Source: a bacterium (GTDB lineage Bacteria > Deinococcota > Deinococci > Deinococcales > Deinococcaceae). Taken from it: DNA of 64,000 nucleotides. The translations under genes were made by a program, and so were the position numbers. The stretch lies in NCBI GenBank assembly GCA_021810505.1, contig JAJZIR010000005.1:62001-126000 (forward strand), in the 5' to 3' direction. Positions 44,902 through 50,569 of the stretch are shown here, piece after piece (position 1 is the first letter of the stretch; each line of letters begins with the position of its first letter). A model generated the notes under the pieces. That model saw only the letters and a list, made by a program, of their open reading frames with translations. It searched no databases and was not told where the DNA came from.

Positions 44902-45627
44902 CTAGGTAGCGCCGAGGGCTGTCCCGGCGAACTTCCTCAACTTCTCGGCTAGGCGGTCGTAGCAGCTAGCCTGCATGTCCAGGATTTCCGGCTTTTCCGC
45001 CTCCATCGAGAGGGGACGGTTGGGGTCCCTGTGAAGTACCGCCGATAGGCACTGGTAGCGCACCTTGTCTGAGATCTCCGCGGCCCGGGTAGGCGGCCCG
45101 GTCCCTGACCACGCCCTTACCCCCTCCGCGCACTCCAGGTACGCTTCCAAGCAACTCCGAAGGCCCGGGTATTGCGCACAGAGGTCTTCTGCGCAGAGGC
45201 TCTCCAGACTACCGGCTCGGTCGTCGTCGGGGACTAGGCTGATCTGTACCGTCAGGGCTTGTTCGCCCGTCTCCCCCGAAGCCGGGAGCGAGAGCACCTC
45301 CGGTAGGGGATACTGGAAATCCTTTCCGTCTTTCTGCAGCTGTCGGTTGGCTGCTTTGATTTGGTTCTGCAGCTTGTTCAGCTTGCTTTCCCCGTCATCC
45401 CCGCAGTCGCTGAGCAGCAAGATCCCCTGCAGCTGCTCAAACCCATCCGCCAGAAGGATCTGGACCAGTTTCTTGCCAAAATTATCTTGGCCATCTACGG
45501 CTAGGCACTGGGGACCGGAGATCTCCCGCTCGCGCAGCAGGCTCGTTAGGAAGTTGGCATCTGCCTTACCTTCACACAGGATCAGCAGCTTTTCCCTGAT
45601 CCTGAAGGGCTCGGAGGACTCGGGCAC
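44902..45627 (-). CDS. TOPRIM-type protein (DUF3226-like), partner of the ATPase
   Basis: This 241-residue protein is predicted to be a TOPRIM-fold nuclease or ligand-binding partner. Residues 14-24 read LLILCEGKADA with the conserved Glu at 19. The second acidic motif is LLSDCGDD (Asp 74 and 77/78), a shifted variant of the usual DxD. A third block, VPDDDRAGSLESL (residues 132-144), matches the PDN...G.LE pattern of DUF3226. GTG 45627 lies 2 nt after the ATPase stop, so expression is coupled. The role is inferred from family and context, by analogy with OLD and PARIS systems. Confidence 0.7.
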   Translation of the reverse strand: MPESSEPFRIREKLLILCEGKADANFLTSLLREREISGPQCLAVDGQDNFGKKLVQILLADGFEQLQGILLLSDCGDDGESKLNKLQNQIKAANRQLQKDGKDFQYPLPEVLSLPASGETGEQALTVQISLVPDDDRAGSLESLCAEDLCAQYPGLRSCLEAYLECAEGVRAWSGTGPPTRAAEISDKVRYQCLSAVLHRDPNRPLSMEAEKPEILDMQASCYDRLAEKLRKFAGTALGAT

Positions 45628-45629
45628 TG

Positions 45630-46784
45630 CTATCTTTTACGGATCTCAAGGCCGCTGGCGATGGCCTCGGCCACAGAGGGCCCCGGGGTCAGATCGGCCA
45701 GACTACGCCCGCTTCTCTGGTGGACCTGGATCAGCGCGAAATCCTCAGCGGCAGCTCTATCTGGATCTTGCATGAGCTCGGCAGCAGCCCTCAGGCACTC
45801 CTGGCTGTGGGTGCTCAGGAACAGCTGGACATCGCTGTCTTTTGCGAACTGGTACAGGGCGCTCCAGAGTTTGGGGAGCAGGCTGTAGTGCAAGCCGTTC
45901 TCGATCTCGTCGATCAGCACGACCCCGCCTTGGAAATTCCGGATCCCGCTCAGGATCAGGACCAACTTGCTCGCCGCCGAGGATACCAGGCTGATGGGGA
46001 TCTTCCTGGGCAGGTGTTGCATCGTAGCTACGATGCAGGGCGCCCCTTGGAGTACCGCGATGGACAGATCGCCGATCTCCGGGAACTCTTTTCGGATGAA
46101 GTCGGTGACCTCTTTGGCATTTTTTAGTACGTCCAGACTTGAGAACCACTGGACTGCCTGAGCGGGGTTGCTGCGGGGGTCGAAGTTGAGCACTTCCGAG
46201 ACGGGTACGAGCCCGGCCCCATGCGGAAGCTGCAGCTGCAGCTGCAGGAAACCGGCCTGAAGATTCAGGCTGGCTTCGGTCTTTTCCGTGATGCCAGGTA
46301 CGAAGTTCACTCGCTCGAAGATGATGGGCAAAATCTGTCCCGTGACCGGTGGTGGGCTGCCAGCCCAGCTGGGCTGGGGCGGCGCTCCGATCAGCTGCGC
46401 TGTCCCCCAAGCGCTGCCCATGCGGATGGTCAGCTGGGCTTGGCGGGGCTGCTCGTCTCCTATTGGCAGTAGTTCAGACTGGAACTCGATGGGCTCTGAC
46501 AGGTCAAAAGAGCCGAAGAGCGATCCCCAGAACTCTTCGAAGACCTGCGCGGCCGAGAAGACCTGCGCGGCCGGTAGGAAGGAAGGTACCCCCTGAGGGA
46601 TTCCTCGCTTCACCTGCAGCTCGTAGGCGATCTGCGCAGTTCCCCCGAGCCCCAGGCGGAGAGCCTCTAGCAGGGCAGTCTTGCCGGAGCCGCTGCCTCC
46701 GACCACGATGTTGACCCGCCGCAAGCCCCGCAGGCGGATCTCCTGGAATCCGCGGAAATTCCTGCACTCGAAACGGCTGATCAC
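45630..46784 (-). CDS. AAA15/21-type ATPase of an OLD/PARIS-like pair
   Basis: This 384-residue ATPase of the ABC/SMC-like overcome-lysogenization-defect group has Walker A VVGGSGSGKTALLEAL (residues 27-42), a signature-like LVSSAASKLVLILSGI, Walker B VVLIDEIENGLH (from residue 288) and the switch His in FLSTHSQECL (324-327). The N-terminal ISRFECRNFRGFQEIRL strand is typical. There is no fused TOPRIM domain; that activity is encoded by the next gene. Base composition is lower in GC than in the flanking core genes. It starts at GTG 46784. Confidence 0.78.
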   Translation of the reverse strand: MISRFECRNFRGFQEIRLRGLRRVNIVVGGSGSGKTALLEALRLGLGGTAQIAYELQVKRGIPQGVPSFLPAAQVFSAAQVFEEFWGSLFGSFDLSEPIEFQSELLPIGDEQPRQAQLTIRMGSAWGTAQLIGAPPQPSWAGSPPPVTGQILPIIFERVNFVPGITEKTEASLNLQAGFLQLQLQLPHGAGLVPVSEVLNFDPRSNPAQAVQWFSSLDVLKNAKEVTDFIRKEFPEIGDLSIAVLQGAPCIVATMQHLPRKIPISLVSSAASKLVLILSGIRNFQGGVVLIDEIENGLHYSLLPKLWSALYQFAKDSDVQLFLSTHSQECLRAAAELMQDPDRAAAEDFALIQVHQRSGRSLADLTPGPSVAEAIASGLEIRKR

Positions 46785-48951: not shown

Positions 48952-50569
48952 TATCCACTACCCGCGAGCTGATTGCGGTAGGCATGTGTCGGAGTCGAGC
49001 GGAGCCGGGTGATCGGTTCTTGTTGTGGCGCGTGAAGCAGCGGGCAATCTGGTGGCGAGGGTGGCTGAGTTGGAGTTGCTGGCGGCGCGCCTTGAGGCCA
49101 AGTTGGCGGCACAGGAGAAGCAGATCGCCCGGAAGGATGAGCCGTTGATCGAGAAGACCAACCGGATCAAAGAGCTCGAGAAGGCACTCGAGGACGCCCA
49201 TCGCCGATCGAAGCGCCAGAGCGCCCCGTTCTCCAAGGGCGACCCGAAGGCCGAGCCGGCCCGCTCGGGGCGCAAGTCCGGCGAGGCCCATGACCGCCAC
49301 GGGCATCGCAGCGTTCCAACGGTGCCGCCCGACCGTGAGCTCGATGCGCCGCTTCCGGCCTGCTGCCCGCACTGCGGCGGCGAGGTGGAGCACGAACGTG
49401 ACGGCGAGCAGTGGCAGGTGGATGTGCCAGAGGTGCGCCCGACGACCACCCGCTTCAAGGTTGGGATGGGACGCTGTCGGTCCTGCAAGCGCCGCATCCA
49501 AGGACGCCACCCAGAGCAGACCTCTGACGCTTTGGGTGCTGCCGGCTCACAGATCGGGCCGGTGCTCAAGGGTTGGGCGATGTTGCTGCACTACCGGATG
49601 GGGTTGGGCTTCGGAAGGACCGCCGAGGTGCTGGCACGCTTCGGGGTGAAGGTGACCGCAGGGGCGATCTGCCAGTCCTCAGCGCGTGCGGTCTCGACCG
49701 ATCTGCTCCCGGTGCACAGAGAACTGGTCCGGCGGGCCAACCGCTCGGCGTCGATCACCATGGACGAGACGAGCTGGAGGGTCGGCGGTCAGAGGAAATG
49801 GCTGTGGGTAGCGGCCAACAGCGAGCTCACGCTGTGCGGGGTAGGGGACGGGCGAGGCTTCGACCAGGCGATCGAGGTGATCGGTGCCGACTACGAGGGC
49901 GTATTGGTCCGAGACGGATACGTGACCTACAACCGATACGACAAAGCTACCCATCAAAGCTGCATTGCTCATCTCGCCAGGCGCTGCCACGAGATGGAGG
50001 CCGGCCTTCCCGCAGCCGATCGTGACGTGCCGGGCGCGGCCAAGGCCATCCTCTCTGCTGCTCTGCGCGCGAGGGACCTGCCTGAAGAACGAGCCGCTGC
50101 TGGGGTCGAGCTCAAGGATCGCCTCGACGCGCTCGCCGTCACTTCCGTCGGCAACGACGCCAACCGCCTCCTCGAGCATCTGGGAAAGCAAGCGCTGTAC
50201 CTGTTCACCTTCCTCAGCGTCGAAGGAGTCGACGCCACGAACTTCCGAGGCGAGCAAGCCGTCCGGCCCTGCGCTGTGAACCGCAAGACCTGGGGCGGCA
50301 ATCGAACCTGGAACGGCACACGAACCCACGGTGTGATCACCTGCATCCTCGCGGCGGCCGCCGAGCACGGCGTCGACACCGTCGACTACCTCGCCGCCCG
50401 AGCCCGCAATCCCGACCCCCGGCCCGCTGTCCTTCTCGGCTGGCGTCCCGGCCAGCCGATACCAGTCGTGAGCTCAACGCACTCTGTCTGACCCCGGCTA
50501 CGGCGACGGGCGACGATCCACTCGCAACTTGAAACCCTGCTTCAACGCACCCTGCAACCCGCTAACCAA
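48940..50569 (+). mobile_element. IS66-type insertion sequence, single transposase gene
   Basis: The element is about 1.63 kb. Imperfect terminal inverted repeats can be seen: TTGTTTAGCGG (48940-48950) and CCGCTAACCAA (50559-50569), which agree at 10 of 11 bases. It carries only the transposase, without the small tnpA/tnpB genes of classic IS66. No 8-bp target duplication is visible, so the exact ends are uncertain or one flank was deleted. Confidence 0.65.
49025..50491 (+). CDS. IS66-family transposase
   Basis: This 488-residue transposase has a leucine-zipper-like N-terminus (AELELLAARLEAKLAAQEKQ), a zinc-binding region with CCPHCGG and CRSCKRR, and the DDE catalytic domain. The candidate residues are in SITMDETSWRVGG, LVRDGYVTYNRY and TNFRGEQAVRPCAVNRKTWG. 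Full length suggests that it may be active. It starts at GTG 49025. Confidence 0.92.
   Translation: MAREAAGNLVARVAELELLAARLEAKLAAQEKQIARKDEPLIEKTNRIKELEKALEDAHRRSKRQSAPFSKGDPKAEPARSGRKSGEAHDRHGHRSVPTVPPDRELDAPLPACCPHCGGEVEHERDGEQWQVDVPEVRPTTTRFKVGMGRCRSCKRRIQGRHPEQTSDALGAAGSQIGPVLKGWAMLLHYRMGLGFGRTAEVLARFGVKVTAGAICQSSARAVSTDLLPVHRELVRRANRSASITMDETSWRVGGQRKWLWVAANSELTLCGVGDGRGFDQAIEVIGADYEGVLVRDGYVTYNRYDKATHQSCIAHLARRCHEMEAGLPAADRDVPGAAKAILSAALRARDLPEERAAAGVELKDRLDALAVTSVGNDANRLLEHLGKQALYLFTFLSVEGVDATNFRGEQAVRPCAVNRKTWGGNRTWNGTRTHGVITCILAAAAEHGVDTVDYLAARARNPDPRPAVLLGWRPGQPIPVVSSTHSV

Follow-up and report, generated by a model that had tools for sequence, protein, structure and literature searches.

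Within the stretch of 64,000 nucleotides analyzed here (the window), two neighboring genes on the minus strand encode an ATPase and a TOPRIM protein. The ATPase gene (45630..46784; 384 amino acids, GTG start) is followed downstream by the DUF3226 (PF11536) TOPRIM gene (44902..45627; 241 amino acids, GTG start), with 2 nt between the ATPase stop and the DUF3226 start; both reading frames are exactly those of a first-pass annotation of this DNA, which had described them as coupled. It had also predicted an OLD-type AAA ATPase and a separate DUF3226-like TOPRIM protein of a different domain family from that of PARIS and OLD/Gabija, and had proposed an HMM check against PF11536, DUF4435 and AAA_15/AAA_21, which was run here and bore out these assignments. 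The ATPase, of the OLD/Rad50-type ABC class, exceeded the Pfam cut-offs of AAA_15 (57.4 bits, E 2.6e-15) and AAA_21 (56.8 bits), and the TOPRIM protein scored 36.7 bits with DUF3226 (E 5.1e-9, residues 15-233 on profile positions 3-206 of 208), for which the gathering cut-off is 27 bits. At E<=1, no Pfam family besides DUF3226 was found in the TOPRIM protein, and DUF4435 (PF14491) was unmatched. No NCBIfam equivalog was detected at its cut-off for either protein. Among the PADLOC models, the ATPase scored best with AbiLi (1e-37) and also matched PDC-M38A (1.7e-32), while the DUF3226 protein weakly matched PDC-M38B (E 9.7e-4, 16.8 bits). A promoter scan and an Rfam search at the pair returned no hits, and terminator-like sites were no more frequent than in shuffled sequence.

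The ATPase carries the Walker A motif GGSGSGKT (residues 29-36; 46677..46700, minus strand), in which K35 is invariant in 79 of 79 ATPase relatives, and the Walker B motif LIDE (residues 290-293; 45906..45917, minus strand), with D292 and E293 equally invariant (79/79). Most of the ATPases close with an ExR tail (E380 in 62/79, R382 in 76/79; 45639-45647 in the window), a possible docking site for the TOPRIM protein. Cysteines recur in both proteins, as THSxEC in 50/79 ATPases (C330; 45795-45797) and as CxxxxxxC in 48-50 of 78 DUF3226 proteins (C159 and C166; 45151-45153 and 45130-45132), and their co-occurrence was not significant when a conserved-cysteine link between the two proteins was looked for (Fisher p=0.22). 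An exact 17-bp direct repeat with 18-bp spacing also lies inside the ATPase gene (46539-46573); it encodes AAQVFSAAQVF and is absent from the aligned relatives.

In the Burkholderia OLD protein (BpOLD), the catalytic center consists of E400, E404, D455/D457, T506/E508 and K562, that is, the pattern E, D/E(+4), DxD, S/T-x-E, K (PMC6755086). The window protein holds motif 1 as EGKAD (residues 19-23; 45559..45573, minus strand), with E19 present in 78 of 78 aligned DUF3226 proteins and an acidic residue at position 23 in 69/78, and motif 2 as DCGDD (residues 74-78; 45394..45408, minus strand), with D74 again in 78/78. These are followed by GSLE (residues 139-142; 45202..45213, minus strand), in which S140 and E142 are spaced as the OLD metal-B ligands T506/E508; position 142 is always acidic (E in 75 of the 78 proteins, D in the other 3), while position 140 is not conserved across the family. 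Finally, K188 (45064..45066, minus strand; K in 74/78) matches the catalytic K562. Judging from the alignment, E19, D74, E142, K188 and the residue at +2 from D74 follow the order and spacing of BpOLD E400, D455, E508, K562 and D457, and D23 and S140 are placed as E404 and T506. By the same alignment, the OLD catalytic set is complete in the window protein except for the second aspartate of DxD, which is displaced to +3.

This displacement had been singled out in the first-pass annotation, and the departure is real: 71/78 aligned proteins have D or E at +2 from D74, where the window protein has G76 followed by D77 (LLLSDCGDDG), a DxxD in place of DxD. The same shift is found in four relatives, L018 (DSSD), L019 (DSAD), L053 (DSTD) and L020 (DTAE), and together with the window pair these form a monophyletic group, with support of 0.88 in the TOPRIM tree and 0.96 in the ATPase tree. 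All five members keep the other catalytic residues and always have an acid at +3. Outside this clade, L093 (DAGE) is similarly shifted and the +2 acid is missing from L021 (DANSD) as well; clade-specific alignments run against viral contigs revealed no further DxxD members. The change marks a small clade and, to judge from OLD mutagenesis, need not by itself mean that the enzyme is inactive or different: cleavage by BpOLD was not discernibly altered by D457A alone (PMC6755086). In the retron Eco2 TOPRIM, alanine at catalytic residues, those of DxD included, abolished defense (PMC12405507). It is conceivable, if on balance doubtful, that the DxxD/E clade is a branch of ATPase–DUF3226 immunity in its own right, carried mainly by phages, and that its repositioned metal ligand would set its substrate or activation chemistry apart from those of AriB, OLD and Eco2.

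Each protein was also modeled singly with AlphaFold2, from input alignments made of the window and fetched related-locus sequences, with high confidence (mean pLDDT of 89.4 for the DUF3226 protein and 88.5 for the ATPase). The best Foldseek match of the DUF3226 model was the C-terminal TOPRIM of Xanthomonas OLD (6njx; E 1.7e-4, probability 1.00), followed by Burkholderia OLD (6nk8), with retron Eco2 as a weaker match. The TM-scores against the matched structures were modest (0.3-0.45), and therefore point to a fold in common with the OLD TOPRIM and to no close kinship. With sequence profiles, the DUF3226 protein retrieved 2p62 (PH0156) at 1.8e-5, with AriB and XccOLD at E near 1. As for the ATPase, its model matched Rad50, GajA, TsOLD, retron PtuA and Septu PtuA, and its sequence profile matched PtuA (1e-16), TsOLD (2e-14) and AriA (8e-9). 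A search against predicted structures of viral proteins yielded no match at E<=1e-3.

To what extent the two genes travel together was evaluated on relatives collected by ATPase-alignment scans of viral contigs and of 84,980 species genomes. Alignment-based searches were needed, since neither P0001 nor P0002, used as a single-protein query on viral contigs, gave confirmed relatives; tblastn with P0001 found nothing in plasmids or phages, and an early DUF3226 alignment held no stretch conserved enough to serve as a search query. After removal of duplicates, and with the window pair and plasmid loci counted in, 91 full-length ATPases remained among the matches listed, 85 of which have a DUF3226-type reading frame directly downstream, as recognized with an iterated DUF3226 profile of our own. 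In 78 of these 85 cases the downstream frame overlaps the ATPase gene or starts no more than 5 nt past its stop, and at one additional locus (L069) the pair is apparently fused, across a stretch of N. In the subset of downstream proteins checked against Pfam, 54/55 matched DUF3226 and 0/55 matched DUF4435 at E<=1e-3. Moreover, distances in the ATPase and TOPRIM trees were correlated over 71 pairs (r=0.77, uncorrected for the species tree; permutation maximum 0.22). The sampled loci span many bacterial groups and archaea of the Methanosarcinales, and chromosomal copies are widespread. Overall, the ATPase and the DUF3226 protein are functionally coupled, probably in defense. Six further loci (L041, L109, L121, L106, L111 and L131) encode longer ATPases (590-750 amino acids), and the gene that follows is TOPRIM-like with weak similarity to DUF3226; these loci perhaps represent another split family.

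The pair is also mobile. With the ATPase query P0002, 148 plasmid records matched at E<=1e-3, mostly Klebsiella plasmids of about 4.2 kb (more than 130 Klebsiella records), and an annotated DUF3226 gene follows the ATPase in most of the annotated plasmid records inspected. Pairs on small plasmids occur in Klebsiella, Escherichia, Citrobacter and Acinetobacter. On plasmids of about 4 kb (L008 and L011 from Klebsiella, L013, and E. coli plasmids of 4.7 kb) the pair is the main cargo and is accompanied by Rop-family genes; L008 is typed as ColRNAI and has its ATPase interrupted by IS1, and L013 has the DUF3226 gene without an annotation. The phage contig L018, which together with one other locus is closest to the window pair among the matches listed (ATPase identity 38-39%), carries the pair with a portal gene on one side and a head-maturation protease gene on the other; L019 has a tape-measure-like gene farther along the contig, and L022 an endolysin gene upstream of an ATPase without a DUF3226 gene. 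Altogether, these results indicate that the pair is a coupled, mobile two-gene unit.

The genomic setting is in agreement with acquisition from elsewhere. Among 111 species of its own phylum (Deinococcota), DUF3226 exceeded the cut-off in the window genome only, and a full-length ATPase match was likewise confined to this genome, with short matches near E 1e-3 in two others. The pair is lower in GC, as had been remarked in the first-pass annotation, with 61-62% and a GC3 of 0.76 against 72-73% and 0.92-0.95 in the adjacent PASTA, cysteine-desulfurase and polysaccharide genes. The PASTA-desulfurase neighbors are conserved in two genomes of the same family without the ATPase/DUF3226 pair beside them, and no other tested window gene was found in the approximately 8-12 kb around PASTA-desulfurase in those genomes. 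On the opposite side, an IS66-type transposase gene (49025-50491) lies 2.2 kb upstream of the pair. With conserved genes on one side and IS66 on the other, a position at the edge of a mobile-element patchwork is a fair description, but no element boundaries were found when looked for around the pair. The window neighbors comprise the cysteine desulfurase, a gene for which no Pfam family exceeded its cut-off, TetR and IS66. Neighbors at 26 loci, counted without a control set, included a few strong defense-model matches (BREX PglX/PglZ/BrxH, methyltransferases and HEC-01/02, among others) but were mostly ordinary genes, which falls short of establishing an enrichment in defense islands.

Among named systems, the nearest is PDC-M38 of PADLOC, which has the same two-gene order (M38A ATPase, then M38B) and the same protein types. 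Among plasmid relatives, matches reach 6.5e-148 for M38A and 3.1e-85 for M38B, and 48/55 DUF3226 relatives match an M38B model; the window pair differs in belonging to the DxxD clade, with a good ATPase match and a weak DUF3226 one. PDC-M38 is a candidate group only, and most of the candidates in PADLOC are said to lack validation (PMC12988326). Our search of published papers found none on DUF3226, PDC-M38 or PH0156 and no experiment on any DUF3226 pair. The earlier view of an uncharacterized system thus holds as regards published functional tests, but the pairing itself is common among the matches listed and already present in PADLOC. In PARIS (AriA/AriB) too, the ABC ATPase (AAA_15/AAA_21) and the TOPRIM effector are encoded by separate genes, and the window ATPase scores above the bounds used for the PARIS ATPase (AAA_15 of at least 32 or AAA_21 of at least 27; PMC9122126); the effector is, however, DUF3226 and not DUF4435, and the AriB model of PADLOC matches 8/55 relatives, weakly. 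Identity with PARIS was ruled out on the missing DUF4435 partner. AbiL (AbiLi/AbiLii), a bicistronic abortive infection system (PMC10440598), provides the best PADLOC score of the ATPase, but its second gene is AbiLii/RloB, unmatched by the window protein and weakly matched by 3/55 relatives, and identity was ruled out on that gene. Class 2 OLD and Gabija GajA combine ATPase and TOPRIM folds, with E, D/E, D, S/T-x-E and K in like order; here, in contrast, the genes are split and DxxD replaces DxD, and this identity was ruled out on the two reading frames and the lack of an adjacent UvrD-like helicase (GajB). Phage interference has been demonstrated for IbfA/HEC-04, an ATPase-TOPRIM (PMC12111858; IbfA was compared by description), and for retron Eco2, an RT-TOPRIM (PMC12405507), but both are single fused proteins.

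Based on our and others' results, the pair is probably a horizontally transferred abortive-infection (innate-immunity) unit of the split OLD type, belonging to the PDC-M38 candidate group. The genes, their fold families, the conserved catalytic residues, the near-obligate pairing, the co-variation and the mobility were observed here. The parallel with related systems makes a sensor ATPase with a TOPRIM effector, acting by abortive infection, the most likely arrangement, and sensing, complex formation, nuclease substrate, abortive outcome and the defense role itself are inferred. In PARIS, which defends against phages (PMC9122126, PMC12409363), the ATPase hexamer holds AriB and releases it on binding a phage protein, and AriB then cuts tRNA (PMC12409363); the Eco2 TOPRIM behaves as an RNase (PMC12405507). 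Following these examples, the ABC ATPase would oligomerize, bind ATP and hold the separate DUF3226 TOPRIM nuclease inactive, until a phage protein or a nucleotide or DNA change during infection altered the ATPase state. This would free or activate the TOPRIM protein, presumably a two-metal nuclease, to cut nucleic acid and halt phage production; on the model of AriB and retron Eco2, host RNA such as tRNA is a likelier substrate than DNA. Counting against defense, not all OLD-family ATPase-nucleases are defense proteins, as the archaeal OLD protein Cran1 has a cell-cycle role and gives no antiviral protection (PMC12796447); the weak PDC-M38B match of the window protein, the displaced second DxD aspartate and the mostly ordinary neighbor genes also count against it.

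Other readings have to be weighed against this one. The pair could be an addiction-type toxin-antitoxin module, with the TOPRIM protein as toxin and the ATPase as antitoxin, kept because it stabilizes a mobile element, phage defense being secondary. AAA proteins did neutralize the TOPRIM_OLD toxins of C. algidicarnis and S. agalactiae in NetFlax toxicity-neutralization assays in E. coli (PMC10440598), and carriage as main cargo of 4-kb plasmids would suit such a module, although the widespread chromosomal copies do not; moreover, ariA deletion is non-toxic in PARIS (PMC9122126), so an ATPase-TOPRIM architecture does not require addiction. We regard this reading, which mechanistically overlaps with that of an abortive-infection unit, as unlikely. 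A Gabija/OLD-like endo/exonuclease complex acting on phage or plasmid DNA, and not on RNA, is suggested by the best structural matches of the TOPRIM model, the DNA-cutting OLD C-terminal domains (PMC6755086), and by those of the ATPase model to GajA and TsOLD. Nevertheless, fold similarity does not set the substrate, and the next match, Eco2, as well as the split AriB, act on RNA (PMC12405507, PMC12409363), which leaves this alternative improbable. A housekeeping role in DNA repair or chromosome function without defense, for which Cran1 (PMC12796447) and the Rad50/SMC-like ATPase fold provide precedent, is very improbable given the patchy presence (1/111 genomes), low GC3 and plasmid and phage carriage. 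That the clade TOPRIM is a degenerate, non-catalytic partner, as G76 and the Eco2 alanine mutants (PMC12405507) might suggest, is hardly credible against the retained catalytic residues and +3 acid in 5/5 members and the BpOLD D457A result (PMC6755086).

With the abortive-infection unit as the preferred reading, the pair joins the ATPase-TOPRIM pairs that are a recurrent architecture in bacterial immunity. The architecture and the candidate group PDC-M38 were already known; what sets this copy apart is the clade-level variation of the active site. The catalytic map and the shifted-ligand clade make direct mutants available, namely E19A, D74A, G76D, D77A and K35A, for a split DUF3226 type that in our sample spans many bacterial groups, archaea, phages and small plasmids, and for which no published function was found.
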